Positions 25,711-31,995 of a stretch of DNA of 64,000 nt are shown here, in pieces. Location of the stretch: assembly GCA_030680835.1 (NCBI GenBank), contig JAUXUD010000062.1, positions 1 through 64,000 on the forward strand, given 5' to 3'. The translations under genes were made by a program, and so were the position numbers. The notes beneath the pieces are model-generated. The model worked only from the letters and a program-made list of their open reading frames with translations, was not told the DNA's origin and did not search any database. Positions within the stretch are counted from its first letter, which is position 1. Each line of letters opens with the position of its first letter. The stretch is from Bacteroidota bacterium. Its GTDB lineage: Bacteria; Bacteroidota; Bacteroidia; UKL13-3.

Positions 25711-26397
25711 ATGAAAAAGGTATTTTTAACAATGGGCATTTGCTTGTTAGGTTTGGTTTCTCAGGCGCAATTGCGCTATGGTTTTGCAGTGCCCTACGAT
25801 AATTTTAATGTAAACGATACCTCTGCTGCACTGGAGCTGGTACTTTTTACTGTAGATAACGACACGTTGAGAGACTCGGTAGGTGTGGGTTCAGACGTTA
25901 CGGCAATTGACGGAACTGCCCGTCATGGATTTGAATTTAACTTTCCCCCTGTAAAATTTATTTTTCCGATAGGAACAACTATTTACAACGGCAGCAACCG
26001 CCATAAAATTAAATACAACCTTACACCCAACCCAACCTTATGGGGTACCAGATACTTCTATATCAAATTAACTTCATTAATAGGTGTTACCGCTTCCGGC
26101 CTAATGTATGGCCAGGAACAAATTGTGGTTTATATTGATTATGATGGAACCAATGTGGGCATTCCCAAGTTATCTGTACATGATTACCGCCTGTATCCGG
26201 TTCCGGCTACCAACCAGTTATTTATTGAAGGCGTAAACAGCAGAAATTTTAAAATTTACGATTTGGCAGGTCGGTTTATTAAAGGTGGAGAAACCCTGCA
26301 AAACAGCATAGATATTAGCGAATTAAGCAATGGCTTATATGTTTTACATGCCATCAGCGATAAAGGTTTAATCGTTCAAAAATTCATTAAAGAATAA
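25711..26397 (+). CDS. Small secreted protein with T9SS C-terminal sorting domain
   Basis: A 228-aa protein. Signal peptide MKKVFLTMGICLLGLVSQAQ. The middle (about 25-150) is a beta sandwich with a Calx-beta-like feel (ALELVLFTVDNDTLRDSV, GTARHGFEF, IYIDYDG). Residues about 155-228 are a type A sorting domain: YRLYPVPATNQLFI, then GLYVLHAISDKGLIVQKFI. The ORF-track start is a TTG two codons upstream of the ATG used here. It stands 6 nt ahead of the SerB-SerA-like fusion, so the two share a transcript, an odd pairing of a surface protein and a serine-pathway enzyme. Confidence 0.82.
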   Translation: MKKVFLTMGICLLGLVSQAQLRYGFAVPYDNFNVNDTSAALELVLFTVDNDTLRDSVGVGSDVTAIDGTARHGFEFNFPPVKFIFPIGTTIYNGSNRHKIKYNLTPNPTLWGTRYFYIKLTSLIGVTASGLMYGQEQIVVYIDYDGTNVGIPKLSVHDYRLYPVPATNQLFIEGVNSRNFKIYDLAGRFIKGGETLQNSIDISELSNGLYVLHAISDKGLIVQKFIKE

Positions 26398-26403
26398 GGC
26401 ATT

Positions 26404-28227
26404 GTGCCTGGCGCTCCCAAAACATTTTTCATCATCGATTTCGACAGCACGTTTACCCAGGTGGAAGCCATGGAAGAACTGGCTGCCATTAGTCTGGAAA
26501 ACGATCCCGAAAAGGAAGACCTGATTTTAAAGATTAAGCAATTAACCGATCTGGCCATGGACGGTAAAATGCCTTTTGGCAAATCGCTCAAAGCCCGGAT
26601 AGCGCTTTTATCTGCCAAAAAATATCATGTCGGCATGCTTGTTAAGCGCTTGCGAAAACGCGTAAGCACTTCATTTGTGCGTAACAAAAAGTTTTTTAAA
26701 GATTATCAGGGTCAGATTTATATTATATCGGGTGGGTTCAGAGAATTTATTGTACCTGTGGTAAAGCCTTATTTTATTGATGATGCCCATGTTTTTGCCA
26801 ATACCTTTGTTTACGACAAAAAGAACAATATCACAGGTGCCGACGAACAAAATCCTTTGGCACAGGAAAACGGCAAAGTGAAACTGATAAAGCAGTTAAA
26901 ATTACATGGAGATATTATTGTTATCGGAGATGGATATACCGATTTCCAGATCTTTGAAGCCGGTTTGGCTACACAGTTTTTTGCATTTACAGAAAATGTT
27001 GTACGCGAAAATGTAGTTAAAAAAGCGCCTTTAACGGCACCCAGCCTCGATGAAATTCTCTATACCCAACGCCTGCCTATGGCCCTGTCGTACCCCAAAA
27101 CGCGCATAAAGGTTGTACTTTTGGGTGAACCCACTTTTTTGGCCGAAAAAGCCATGAAAGCAGAAGGCTACCAACTTATAAAACTACCCGAAAAAACAAA
27201 TACAAAATTGCTGAACCAACATTTGGAACAAAGCAATATTCTCTTGTTTTCAGGGGCTGTTGATCCAAATAAAATAGAAAAAGCAAACTTTTCAAAATTA
27301 TTAACAGTGGGTTATTGGGGCGAACTGCATCGGGAGGAAATTGCCGACACGCTGGTTAAAAAAGGCACAGCGGTGTTTGATGCCAATTTTGCGCACTCGC
27401 GCAGCAATGCCGAGCTTGCCCTGCTATTGTTATTGCAGTTGAACCGAAAACTGGGGCAGGAATTATCGGGCAAAAAACTGGGAATTATCGGTTATGGCCA
27501 CCGGGGTTCTATGATATCGGTACTGGCAGAGCATTTGGGAGTGGAAATTTTTTATTATGATATTGATGAAAAACCGGAACTGGGTAATACCAAACGTGTA
27601 AAACAATTACCCGAATTATTGCGCAAGGTAAATATGCTTGTGGTTACTGCAGGAAAGCGCTTTGAAGGCAAAACCATTTTAGGTTCAAAAGAAATAAAAG
27701 CCTTGCAAAATGATTGCATTTTAATAAACCTGAGTTACGATAATTGTTTGGATTTGAATGCTGTTCATGCAGCTCTCTATCAAAATAAGCTGGGTGGTTT
27801 TGCAATGGATTGTTTACAGGAAGAAACTTATAGATTAATAGCCTTTTGGCCAATGGCAATAATAAGTTTACAAAAACGATTTGCCACAGAACAAACCCAG
27901 CAAAATATTTCGGAAATGCTTTGTGAAAAAATAATCGCATACATAAATACCGGCAATACTGCAGGCAGTGTTAATTTCCCCGAACTCAACTTACCAGCAC
28001 AGCAACAATCGCAGCGGTTTATACATGTACATGAAAACAAACCAGGCGTATTGGCGCAAATCAATACCATATTGGCCCGGCATAAAATAAATATCAGCGG
28101 CCAGTATTTAAAAACCAACGCGAGTATTGGTTATGTAATTACCGATGTTGCCAAAGATTACCCAAAGCAGGCGCTTGAGGATTTGAAAGCCATCAAAGAA
28201 ACCATTCGGTTCAGGGTTTTGTATTGA
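26404..28227 (+). CDS. Phosphoserine phosphatase fused to a degenerate D-3-phosphoglycerate-dehydrogenase-like half with ACT domain
   Basis: A 607-aa cytosolic protein starting at GTG. Residues 1-225 are a complete HAD phosphoserine phosphatase: DFDSTF nucleophile motif, ISGG, the Lys of GKVKLIKQL and GDGYTDFQIFEAG. Residues about 235-530 follow a phosphoglycerate dehydrogenase (SerA) from end to end: HSRSNAELALLLLLQLNRKL, the Rossmann motif IGYGHRGSMISVLAEHLG, and NTAGSVNFPEL leading to the ACT domain (about 535-607, FIHVHENKPGVLAQINTIL). However, the strands that should hold the catalytic Arg (A-S-R-G) and His (P-H-I-G-G) read LINLSYDNC and MAIISLQKRFA. The phosphatase is probably active; the dehydrogenase half may be a serine-sensing scaffold. 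Confidence 0.85.
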   Translation: MPGAPKTFFIIDFDSTFTQVEAMEELAAISLENDPEKEDLILKIKQLTDLAMDGKMPFGKSLKARIALLSAKKYHVGMLVKRLRKRVSTSFVRNKKFFKDYQGQIYIISGGFREFIVPVVKPYFIDDAHVFANTFVYDKKNNITGADEQNPLAQENGKVKLIKQLKLHGDIIVIGDGYTDFQIFEAGLATQFFAFTENVVRENVVKKAPLTAPSLDEILYTQRLPMALSYPKTRIKVVLLGEPTFLAEKAMKAEGYQLIKLPEKTNTKLLNQHLEQSNILLFSGAVDPNKIEKANFSKLLTVGYWGELHREEIADTLVKKGTAVFDANFAHSRSNAELALLLLLQLNRKLGQELSGKKLGIIGYGHRGSMISVLAEHLGVEIFYYDIDEKPELGNTKRVKQLPELLRKVNMLVVTAGKRFEGKTILGSKEIKALQNDCILINLSYDNCLDLNAVHAALYQNKLGGFAMDCLQEETYRLIAFWPMAIISLQKRFATEQTQQNISEMLCEKIIAYINTGNTAGSVNFPELNLPAQQQSQRFIHVHENKPGVLAQINTILARHKINISGQYLKTNASIGYVITDVAKDYPKQALEDLKAIKETIRFRVLY

Positions 28228-28390: not shown

Positions 28391-30079
28391 ATGAAAAACT
28401 CTATTTTATTCATTTTACTTTTTTGTATAACATGCGGTTTTACAAAAATACAAGCACAACCAAAATGTGTATTTGATACATTGTATCCAAATTTCGGTTA
28501 TTATGGATTCGTGGGAGAGAATGTTATTCAGTTAAAAGATGGAGGGTATGCTATAAGAGGATTTACATCTAAGTTTAACACTATGTTTTATCCGGATGAA
28601 GCATTTTCAACAGTATTAAAAATTGATAGATGTGGCAATAAAATCTGGCAATATGATGATACAGCAATATTTTTTTCTTATTCAACAACTGGACTTAACC
28701 TTATTGAAGAAGAAGACAATGGTATAACTTTTCTAAATGACACTCTGGACTTGATTAAACTCGATAAAAATGGGAATAGAAAATGGGTAATAAAAATTGA
28801 CAAAGATACTGTACGTTATAATAGTATTATAAAAGTTGCATCCAATCATTATTTATTAGCTGGTACTAAAAAGGTTGCTCCAAATAAAGGCCATGCCAGC
28901 ATTTTAATAATTGATTCTCTTGGCAATACTATCTCTCAAAAGAATTATTTTGTTAATTCCGGAAACAGTAGTTATTTAACAAGTTTATATAGAAAATCAT
29001 TAAATGAATTGATTCTTCTTGGTTTTGAAGATTCCGCATTGATGGTTATCAGCACTGATTTAAGTGGTAACATAAATAATATATATAAAAAATATATCCA
29101 TGATTCATTGATAGATCAATATAAGATTAGAAAGGCCTGTTTAAATTCTGATTTAGACGAGATTTTATATTCCACTTCATCCGCTCTGATGGAAAAAAAT
29201 AAATTATATTTAGCCAGATTAAATTTGAATAGTGTTATTATTAGTGACACTATTATTAGTGCCACTAATAATGATATAGCTGATTTTTTAGTTTCTCCTG
29301 GTCCTAATAAATCTCTTGTTTTTTTGACACGTAATAATTCATATTTTATTAATCATATTGATTCGAATTTTACCTTAATTAAAAGGGAACGCATTTCAAA
29401 TATCTGGGGCTTTGGCTATGAATTTCAAGCAAATCAATTTTTATATTCATCGGACGGCTCATTATTGACAATTGGATATACGACAATCTATGGTGGATCT
29501 TTCAGTGCACATTTCAATTTGTATGCAAAAAAGATATACCTTTATAAATACGTAGAATCTTTATTAATTACAGGGCCCGGTTCAATAGACACAAAAAATG
29601 GACAAATCCAATTAACGGCAGTCATAACTCCTATTGATGCACCCAATCAGCAAATATTTTGGGCAGTGAATGATACGAGCAAAGCAGTTATTACACAAAC
29701 CGGTTTGCTTACTGCAAAGTCGAATGGAACCGTAACCGTAACTGCCACTTCAATGGATAACTCTCTTGCCACAGTGTCAAAAAACATTTATATAACAAAT
29801 CAATCCATTGGCATGGGCGAACAACTAACTCATTTACAAATTTCAGTTTACCCAAATCCGGCAAACCAAAGCATCAATATTTCATTTCAATCAATCGTTA
29901 CTAACCCTGAATTCGAATTATTTGATGCAAAAGTAATGCATATTAAAAATGCCCGTATCGATAAAATAAATGAGCAGTTATACAAGCTTGATTTGATAAA
30001 TTTAACGGAAGGAATTTATATACTATCCATTGGTGTAAATGAAATGAAGCAGTACCAAAAAGTGATGGTGCTTAAATAG
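28391..30079 (+). CDS. Secreted protein with BIG2-type Ig-like domain and T9SS sorting domain (duplicate A)
   Basis: A 562-aa protein. Residues 1-22 are a signal peptide ending IQAQ. The main part (about 25-385) is beta-rich with repeated G-x-x-x-W/K-L-D-K-x-G-N phrases that suggest a propeller-type fold. About 390-475 is a bacterial Ig-like group 2 domain (LTAVITPIDAPNQQIFWAVND, then LLTAKSNGTVTVTATS). The end, VYPNPANQSINISF to IYILSIGVNEMKQYQKVMV, is a type A sorting domain. It is the first copy of a tandem duplication; the second copy (30344) is frameshifted. It is followed by a remnant of rlmB. Confidence 0.85.
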   Translation: MKNSILFILLFCITCGFTKIQAQPKCVFDTLYPNFGYYGFVGENVIQLKDGGYAIRGFTSKFNTMFYPDEAFSTVLKIDRCGNKIWQYDDTAIFFSYSTTGLNLIEEEDNGITFLNDTLDLIKLDKNGNRKWVIKIDKDTVRYNSIIKVASNHYLLAGTKKVAPNKGHASILIIDSLGNTISQKNYFVNSGNSSYLTSLYRKSLNELILLGFEDSALMVISTDLSGNINNIYKKYIHDSLIDQYKIRKACLNSDLDEILYSTSSALMEKNKLYLARLNLNSVIISDTIISATNNDIADFLVSPGPNKSLVFLTRNNSYFINHIDSNFTLIKRERISNIWGFGYEFQANQFLYSSDGSLLTIGYTTIYGGSFSAHFNLYAKKIYLYKYVESLLITGPGSIDTKNGQIQLTAVITPIDAPNQQIFWAVNDTSKAVITQTGLLTAKSNGTVTVTATSMDNSLATVSKNIYITNQSIGMGEQLTHLQISVYPNPANQSINISFQSIVTNPEFELFDAKVMHIKNARIDKINEQLYKLDLINLTEGIYILSIGVNEMKQYQKVMVLK

Positions 30080-30087
30080 CAAAAATG

Positions 30088-30260
30088 TTACCCGCGTTGT
30101 TTCATTGCCTCGTACATGGCAATGCCTGCGGCAACCGATACATTGAGCGATGATACCCCGAAACCCATGGGGATTTTTGCCTGATGGCTGCATTTGTTTA
30201 ATACATCGGTACCAATTCCGCTTTCTTCGTTACCATAATAATGGCCAATGGTCCGCTTAG
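30088..30260 (-). pseudogene. 3' remnant of a duplicated rlmB
   Basis: These 173 bp match 32004-32177 (the 3' end of intact rlmB, including the stop codon) with about eight substitutions and one missing base (TTACCATA against TTACCCATA). Similarity ends sharply at GTCCGCTTA. The piece lies in the same position relative to duplicate A as intact rlmB does to duplicate B, so it marks the right part of a tandem duplication. Confidence 0.9.
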
Positions 30261-30302
30261 GTATTTTTCTTCTAAATTAATAATTTTCAATTATTTATAC
30301 AT

Positions 30303-30310
30303 TATTTTTG
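30303..30310 (+). promoter_or_regulatory. Candidate -7 element for the T9SS gene at 30344
   Basis: TATTTTTG, 33 nt before the ATG, with no strong -33 match. Confidence 0.35.
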
Positions 30311-30343
30311 TATTTAAAAAATTCCATTATTTAAATTATCATT

Positions 30344-31995
30344 ATGAAAAAGTATATCAATGCTATATTAATGGTTTATCTAATTATCGGTTTAGTAAAA
30401 CTACATGCACAACCTTTATGTGAATTTGATACCGTTTATACTCCCAACAGTTTTATTAATTTAAATAGTGGAAGAAAAGTTATTCAATTAAATGATAAGA
30501 ACTTTTTTATTGTTGGTACCACAATAGAATTAACTAATACTCCACCTGATTATTTTTATTCAACATCATTTGCTAAAATAGGAGCTTGTGGGGGTATTAT
30601 GGGGACATTTAAAGACAGCGTTTCTTTAAATTATATTGCAGATACAAAGTTAATTGAAGAACAGGGTGCAAGTATTACAATACTGATTAATGGAAACCGG
30701 TTAATAAAACTGGATAGATATATGAATAAAAAATGGGAAGTAAAACTTGGAGATGCTGTCAATTATATAAGCACGAATAGTTTTATTAAATTAAGCAACA
30801 ATAAATATTTATTTGTTGGGAAAAAAGCCCGGGCCTGTATTTTAATGACGGATACACTTGGGAACGCAATTTTACAAAAACGCCTTTCTATAGATTCAAA
30901 TAGTAATAGTTATTTTCAAAAAGTCTATAAAAAATCATTAAATGAAATTAATTTGTTAGGGTTTGAAGATAGCAGCTTAATTATCCTGACAATTGATACA
31001 ATTGGAAATATTCAAAACAGTTATAAAACAGTACTTTTTAATGGTTCATCAACCTATAAACATGTTTGCTTTAATTACGATTCAACGGAAATAATATACT
31101 CATCTTTAGTTTCTTCTGCTCATAAAATATATTTGGCAAGATATACTTCAAGTGGAGTTAAAATTAAAGACACTATGACAAGTATAGATGGTATTGCTAA
31201 TATCAATGAATCTAATCTATCAGTTGCTCCTAATAAAACCATTGAATTACTTGCGCTATACTGTACTCTTTTAATTGATAAGGATTTTAATATAATTTGG
31301 AAGGATACGTTATTATTACGAAAGCCATATGAGGATTATGCATATCATAGTTCTATTTTTACAAAAGAAAACTCAGTAATTACTATAGGTGATAGGGTAC
31401 ATTGTCCTGGCATTTCCGGTACTTGTTATTGGGATTTACATATTAAAAAGTCCTTCACATATAAATACGTAAAATCATTAACGATAAGCGGCCAAAATTA
31501 TATAAATACCAATGGCGGTCAAACTCAATTAACCCCAATAATTACCCCTGCCGATGCGCTTAATAAAAAAATTTATTGGAATGTGAGTGATTGGAGCAAG
31601 GCAATAATTGATTCAAATGGATTGCTTACAGCCAAAGCCAATGGTATTGTAAAAGTTACCGCCACATCTGCAGATAACAGCCTTGCAACTGCATTTATGA
31701 ATATTACCATAAGTAACCAAAGCATTGGAATTGATGAAGCATTATCAAAATCATTCGCGTCGGTTTACCCGAACCCAAGCAGCCAAATCATAAATATTTC
31801 ATTTCAATCAAGCGTTACTAACCCTGAATTTGAATTATATGATACAAAGGAATGCTTATTAAAAATGTTCATTTTGATAAAATAAATGAGCATTTATACA
31901 AGCTTGATTTGATAAATTTAACCGAAGGGATGTATATTCTTTCTATCGGTATAAATGAAATGAAACAATACCAAAAAGTGATGGTGGTTAAATAG
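30344..31995 (+). pseudogene. BIG2/T9SS paralogue (duplicate B), frameshifted before the sorting signal
   Basis: The intact part (30344-31885, 513 aa) parallels duplicate A: a signal peptide ending LHAQ, a propeller-like body, a BIG2 domain (LTPIITPADALNKKIYW, LLTAKANGIVKVTATS) and the beginning of the sorting domain VYPNPSSQIINISF. After FELYDTK the frame breaks: the next +1 frame from ATGCTTATT onward reads through NLTEGMYILSIGINEM and QYQKVMVV to a TAG at 31993-31995, exactly as in copy A. One base is missing near 31850. Unless this is a sequencing error, the protein would be made without its T9SS signal and stay in the periplasm. Confidence 0.85.

Follow-up and report, generated by a model that had tools for sequence, protein, structure and literature searches.

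A phosphoserine phosphatase fused to an apparently inactivated phosphoglycerate dehydrogenase in uncultured Bacteroidia

Domain organization of the fusion protein

The window (the 64,000-nucleotide stretch of a Bacteroidota genome, contig JAUXUD010000062.1 of the assembly GCA_030680835.1, that was analysed) contains on the forward strand, at 26404-28227, an uninterrupted frame encoding a 607-aa protein. Domain searches identify HAD/SerB matches in the N-terminal part of this protein and 2-Hacid_dh_C and ACT matches in the C-terminal part, and the phosphoglycerate dehydrogenase (PGDH) SerA of Escherichia coli aligns end to end with residues 229-607, so that the original prediction of an open SerB-SerA fusion with these boundaries was right. 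The GTG codon at 26404 is the sole plausible start; the upstream gene ends with a TAA in the same frame, 6 nt before it. The genomic context shows no ser operon around the fusion; the neighbors encode a glucosaminidase/LysM protein and type IX-secreted proteins. One of the latter is the product of the upstream gene, whose stop codon shares the frame of the GTG of the fusion at a distance of 6 nt (26395-26404). Downstream, two consecutive ORFs with Big_2 domains (28391-31885; 562 and 513 aa) are similar enough to suggest a tandem duplication; in one of them, a type IX sorting tail is recognised. The features of the fusion are as follows (unless stated otherwise, counts refer to aligned sequences; f1 denotes the family of this bacterium, and other f numbers denote other families).

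26404..28227, + strand, whole SerB/pseudo-SerA/ACT fusion; 607 aa, GTG start, TGA stop, uninterrupted
26404..27075, + strand, phosphoserine phosphatase half, residues 1-224, HAD-IB; matches NCBIfam serB (71 bits) and the human and Methanocaldococcus PSP structures
26437..26451, + strand, HAD motif I, DFDST (D12, D14, T16); all three invariant, 87/87
26464..26466, + strand, Glu21, matching E29, the substrate Glu of human PSP, in the alignment
26596..26598, + strand, Arg65, matching R65, the substrate Arg of human PSP, in the alignment
26728..26730, + strand, HAD motif II, Ser109; invariant, 89/89
26875..26877, + strand, HAD motif III, Lys158; invariant, 89/89
26926..26943, + strand, HAD motif IV, GDGYTD (D176, D180); both invariant, 90/90
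27088..27393, + strand, first half of the SerA substrate-binding domain, R60/R62 lost (alignment); mean within-family identity 33%, against 71% for SerB
27394..27879, + strand, Rossmann (NAD-binding) domain, predicted to be catalytically dead; excised in relatives from f39 and f13 (alignments)
27453..27454, + strand, site of an 18-residue deletion that removed the W139/K141 loop; gap in 17/17 family members, W and K in 45/45 intact fusions
27490..27507, + strand, dinucleotide loop G363-Y-G-H-R-G368, kept; glycines in 16-17 of 17 family members
27559..27561, + strand, Asp386 (E. coli D181, NAD ribose), kept; 16/17 in the family, 45/45 in intact fusions
27736..27741, + strand, Tyr445-Asp446 in place of catalytic Arg240-Gly241; R240 in 45/45 intact and 0/17 family fusions, D446 newly fixed (16/17)
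27828..27829, + strand, site of a 7-residue deletion after the E269 position (alignment)
27871..27879, + strand, Gln490-Lys-Arg492 in place of catalytic His292-Ile-Gly294; H292 in 45/45 intact and 0/17 family fusions, R492 newly fixed (16/17)
27880..28008, + strand, end of the substrate-binding domain and hinge (NTGNTAGSVNFPELNLP) (alignment)
28009..28224, + strand, ACT domain; Pfam ACT_AHAS_ss, 8.9e-14; 65% within-family identity
28030..28038, + strand, His543 and Asn545 (E. coli H344 and N346, serine-binding; PMC6300728); invariant, 99/99
28090..28092, + strand, Asn563 (E. coli N364, serine-binding from the partner subunit; PMC6300728); invariant, 99/99

The phosphatase and ACT domains

The phosphatase half contains all four HAD motifs, as predicted originally, and the catalytic residues D12, D14, T16, S109, K158, D176 and D180 are invariant in all aligned rows. 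E21 and R65 align with the Glu and the Arg by which human PSP recognizes phosphoserine. The 71-bit match to the NCBIfam serB equivalog model, TIGR00338, falls below the cut-off of 144, but this model is strict, given that a match above the cut-off was found in just 7 of 14 control genomes. A search of the same genome for a second SerB-family gene yields no convincing match, and the fusion likely encodes the phosphoserine phosphatase of the cell.

In E. coli SerA, serine is bound by H344, N346 and N364 (PMC6300728). The corresponding ACT residues are invariant in 99 of 99 ACT-carrying sequences, regardless of whether the dehydrogenase half is intact, decayed or excised. A point against serine control is that an ACT domain can lose serine sensitivity, as in mammalian PGDHs, although the binding residues are altered there (PMC6300728).

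The dehydrogenase half

In the alignment of the fusion with E. coli SerA, six functional residues of the SerA half are missing, namely R60, R62, W139, K141, R240 and H292 (E. coli numbering). At the position of R240, the fusion contains Tyr445 (LINLSYDNC, compared to LINASRGTV in E. coli), and at the position of H292, it contains Gln490 (SLQKRFA, compared to TPHIGGS); both motifs had been quoted correctly in the original prediction, which recognized the loss of the Arg and the His and understated its extent: R60/R62, the 18-residue stretch with W139/K141 and the 7 residues after E269 are gone as well. What the prediction listed as kept, namely the Rossmann loop, the hinge and the ACT domain, does align with E. 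coli SerA (G363/G365/G368, the hinge and the ACT residues), and D386 and D469 are also retained. In terms of type II PGDH, the protein therefore possesses the GxGxxG loop with the counterpart of Asp181 and the C-terminal ACT serine residues, and lacks R240, the H292/Glu269 pair and the phosphate-binding residues (R60, R62 and the W139/K141 loop). The NCBIfam PGDH model NF008759 scores 271 bits over the entire C-terminal part, below its cut-off of 404, and PF02826 scores above its own cut-off.

The search covered 60 relatives, 64 family genomes, 396 genomes from the class and 393 from the phylum. The sample from the family itself, which consists of uncultured Bacteroidia, includes 17 fusions, 16 of them full length. 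R60, W139, K141, R240 and H292 are absent from all 17; E269 is not conserved (Glu in 6 of 17), and the SerA cores of these fusions contain neither a conserved His nor a substitute general acid. In the 45 intact Bacteroidota fusions from other families, R60, K62, W139, K141, R240, E269 and H292 are all present (45/45). The occurrence of the same losses in 17 of 17 separately assembled family genomes, and in none of the 45 intact fusions, is incompatible with a chance event or an assembly error. Judging from these alignments, it is nearly certain that the dehydrogenase activity has been lost.

The AlphaFold2 model of the SerA half (four-sequence input; pLDDT 66, pTM 0.54) is of moderate quality and too poor to place D446 and R492, and the full-length model, also built from four sequences, is poor (pLDDT 54). 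A Foldseek search started with the SerA-half model identifies E. coli PGDH with an E value of 2.6e-31 but a TM score of 0.38.

Constraint on the dehydrogenase half

The dN/dS values for the dead core are 0.09 (dS 0.39) and 0.11 (dS 0.11) in two unsaturated pairs and range from 0.08 to 0.18 in three other pairs; for intact fusions, the values are 0.014-0.024, which is a rough estimate because those pairs have high dS. When f1 pairs share 71% identity in SerB, the identity is 33% in the substrate domain, 42% in the Rossmann domain and 65% in ACT; for intact pairs with 70% SerB identity, it is 75% in each of the three domains. This difference indicates that constraint has eased in the catalytic domains and hardly at all in SerB and ACT. 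Thus, in the dead half, purifying selection is relaxed, not removed. The selection for a non-catalytic partner that had been proposed originally is borne out to the extent that the dead half evolves with dN/dS of about 0.1, has acquired lineage-specific fixed residues and keeps the ACT serine site invariant; near-normal constraint, however, is confined to SerB and ACT. Given the clear relaxation of both the substrate and the Rossmann domain, part of the SerA half may be scarcely more than a spacer that the protein tolerates.

The residues fixed in f1 only include G241, W305, G306, D446 and R492. Of these, D446 stands in place of the Gly adjoining R240, and R492, located two residues from the former position of His292, replaces G294 of the PHIGG motif. 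One family member (L028) has lost the NAD glycines and the Asp as well. None of the 16 full-length family fusions contains an internal stop. A pseudogene or a sequencing error was considered and is ruled out by the family-wide occurrence, the open frame and the purifying selection.

Distribution and evolution of the fusion

Among the relatives, the SerA half is found in several states. In f11 (three genomes), serB and serA are separate, adjacent genes. In one fusion (G059), R240 is replaced (R240G) with H292 and the loop kept; in another genome (G103), the SerA half decayed separately. The latter locus (L094; G103:C12:29294-34087) is a 732-aa open frame in which the strand with Arg240 is mostly missing. 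In f39 (18 genomes) and f35 (one genome), the Rossmann domain is deleted and the protein comprises SerB, half of the substrate domain (the first) and ACT; f13 (two genomes, one with a frame break) shows the same Rossmann-less arrangement with different junctions. In the single-contig genome G116, the SerB-ACT gene and the short serA are each split over two frames (L116), possibly through assembly frame errors. Some members of f1 lack the fusion gene altogether. Three genomes without a full fusion contain SerB-like fragments with stop codons and 53-76% identity (L038 in G027, L053 in G078 and G012:C2:8381-8500), which look like remnants of the lost gene.

In the tree built from the SerB and ACT columns (83 rows), f1 forms a single clade (support 100) that is a sister group to f39 with modest support (83). 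The excised SerB-ACT form of f35 (L113; G393:C1:14347-18630) is nested inside f39, which suggests acquisition by horizontal transfer. Parsimony yields 3 state changes, or 4 if G059 is counted. The AU test rejects a single origin for all dead forms (p 0.0016), as it does a grouping of f1 and G103 (p 0.001). It does not reject a common clade for the excised forms found in f39 and f13 (p 0.215), which is disfavored only by their differing junctions. Loss in f1 and f39 may go back to a shared initial event. Overall, repeated loss here stands for a minimum of two or three events rather than for many.

A second, intact SerA

The presence of a second intact serA, on which the original prediction had called for a check, is confirmed. 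On another contig of the same genome (L002; C22:144047-147595), serC (363 aa), an intact serA without an ACT domain (321 aa) and a 412-aa ORF are encoded on the same strand. The short SerA contains the NCSRGG and SPHIGG motifs, and this locus is the probable source of the working PGDH of the organism. Elsewhere in the genome (L001, contig C82), a 341-aa 2-hydroxyacid dehydrogenase with intact NLSRG and PHIGG motifs is encoded just downstream of a ksgA-like gene.

An ortholog of the short SerA is present in 16 of the 17 genomes with the decayed fusion; in the exception (G034), serC is also absent, as if the locus were missing from the assembly. The ortholog is also present in all 18 f39 genomes and in G048, G116 and G103, and G393 lacks it and encodes a separate 389-aa SerA-like protein. 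Among the genomes with intact fusions, 18 (from f2, f14, f48 and f67) lack the ortholog and 11 have it, as does G059. Over the rows of the tree, the backup SerA accompanies decay in 35 of 37 cases, against 12 of 30 (Fisher p 1.3e-6). An independent-pairs test of this link is not significant, there being just 2-3 independent contrasts, with which significance cannot be reached. The link between decay and a backup SerA is consistent with the data, not proven.

In eight siblings without the fusion (G004, G013, G015, G021, G028, G060, G072 and G086), no SerB-family match was found at 1e-6, and serC is kept, together with serA where it was searched for. Another phosphatase can evidently catalyze the step in these organisms, given that serC-serA persists with no SerB-family match, and this counts against the reading favored below.

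Comparison with known systems

Several types of PGDH and ACT-bearing phosphatases are known, and fusion of enzymes of one pathway is ordinary. Among the systems most similar to the protein described here are the intact Bacteroidota SerB-SerA fusions (about 630-650 aa), which have the same domain order, 39-46% full-length identity and the same HAD and ACT residues; unlike the window protein, they retain the catalytic residues, and many are likely to be the PGDH of a genome in which no short SerA ortholog was found. The excised proteins of f39 and f13 (frames of 424-501 aa) share with it the phosphatase and ACT domains, the coexistence with a short SerA and the lack of a PGDH active site, and differ in that their NAD-binding domain was deleted rather than decayed. 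E. coli SerA (type II PGDH; 1PSD, 1YBA) has a common fold with the C-terminal part by sequence and by Foldseek, along with the NAD loop, the hinge and the serine-binding residues, whereas the window protein lacks the catalytic Arg and His, carries two active-site deletions and is fused behind SerB. The short ACT-less SerA next to serC (type III PGDH) is a separate gene of the same genome with all catalytic motifs and is the likely working PGDH.

The mycobacterial SerB2 (MtSerB2; ACT-ACT-PSP) is an ACT-bearing phosphatase that is inhibited by serine (PMC10564941). Its two ACT domains are N-terminal and differ in their serine site, and it carries no SerA remnant, whereas the window protein has a single C-terminal ACT domain of SerA descent. 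The serine-pathway fusions of oomycetes and stramenopiles are PGDH-PSAT, not PSP-PGDH (PMC2705460, PMC5715807). A search of the open-access literature turned up no paper describing SerB-SerA fusions or the loss of one of their activities.

Functional interpretation

The protein is probably a serine-regulated phosphoserine phosphatase in which the former dehydrogenase half serves as a regulatory or oligomerization module. The phosphatase activity, the binding of serine, the direction of regulation and the oligomeric state are predictions from the sequence, and so is the serine-sensing role of the SerA half, which we infer as the original prediction did. Under the proposed scenario, the ancestor would have been a bifunctional SerB-SerA fusion in genomes that also held the serC-linked ACT-less short SerA, which would have made the fused dehydrogenase (type II SerA) dispensable and led to the loss of its active site. 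The fusion would have been retained because the ACT domain and the dimer and tetramer interfaces of the SerA half let L-serine control the phosphatase: serine bound at the ACT-ACT interface would alter the oligomer or access to SerB, and so inhibit SerB. The outcome would be feedback on the last step of the pathway, the first step being run by the short SerA without ACT. Besides the loss of the catalytic residues, the purifying selection, the backup SerA and the excised relatives, this reading is favored because ACT is kept in every state and because MtSerB2, which also bears ACT domains, is inhibited by serine (PMC10564941). A point against it is that the Rossmann domain is under selection in f1, which is unexplained if ACT alone is needed; by default, we consider this domain a scaffold.

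It seems unlikely that the SerA half is a passive relic in the course of decay, with SerB alone being of importance, perhaps along with ACT-ACT dimerization for stability, and the remainder persisting because a C-terminal ACT is hard to keep without it. The far lower conservation of the substrate and Rossmann domains than of SerB and ACT, the additional loss of the NAD glycines and Asp in L028, the deletion of the Rossmann domain in relatives and the loss of the whole gene in some family members, with SerB-like fragments in G027, G078 and G012, all fit such a decay, but the dN/dS of about 0.1 in unsaturated pairs, the GxGxxG loop and D386 kept in 16 of 17 proteins, the lineage-specific fixation of W305, G306, D446 and R492 and the lack of internal stops in 16 full-length fusions do not. 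Somewhat less probable again is a repurposed ligand sensor, in which the Rossmann domain would bind NAD(H) or another ligand in a remodelled cleft (D446/R492) and report the redox or metabolite state to the phosphatase, much as a dehydrogenase fold is employed by CtBP-type proteins. The retention of GxGxxG and of the ribose-binding Asp in 16 of 17 family members and the fixation of D446 and R492 at former active-site positions are compatible with a sensor, but L028 dispenses with the NAD loop residues, the excised relatives live without the Rossmann domain and the structural model is too poor to place D446/R492.

The retention of the Rossmann domain would also be explained if the dead half paired with the ACT-less, 321-aa short SerA via the Rossmann dimer surface and so conferred serine feedback on it, and the two proteins do coexist in 16 of 17 genomes. 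Such a partnership is improbable, however, because the short SerA has only about a third of its residues in common with the fusions, even the intact ones, the loop with W139/K141, which extends to the partner subunit, has been deleted and f39 entirely lacks the Rossmann domain. Finally, an enzyme that is still a dehydrogenase, with the Arg and the general acid supplied from shifted positions or with another substrate, could draw on the kept NAD loop and on the new conserved Arg492, two residues from the position of His292; this is hardly credible, given that the SerA core contains no conserved His, E269 is not conserved and the phosphate-binding R60/R62 and W139/K141 are gone. The original prediction had allowed for an Arg and a His from shifted positions, and no such pair is apparent: there is no conserved His, and the new R492 is not accompanied by a general acid.

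Implications

Beyond the regulated phosphatase favored here, a broader scheme can be put forward tentatively, at somewhat less than even chances: a bifunctional enzyme would have been turned more than once into a regulated single enzyme by inactivation of one half. In f1, the dead dehydrogenase would have gained a conserved site of its own (D446/R492 and the NAD loop) and would act as an allosteric module for the phosphatase, and at least one relative family would have arrived at the same result by excision of the nested Rossmann domain.

Within one phylum, these genes form a graded series, from adjacent genes to the intact fusion, R240G alone (G059), full decay of the active site and excision of the domain. 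With the serine-binding residues fixed throughout the series, the change of a catalytic domain into a purely regulatory one becomes testable. The series is also a warning for annotation pipelines, given that proteins of this kind score well with PGDH models and can be tallied as SerA, even though another gene must supply the activity. Taken together, the findings suggest that a used-up enzyme has been kept as the control arm of its neighbor.
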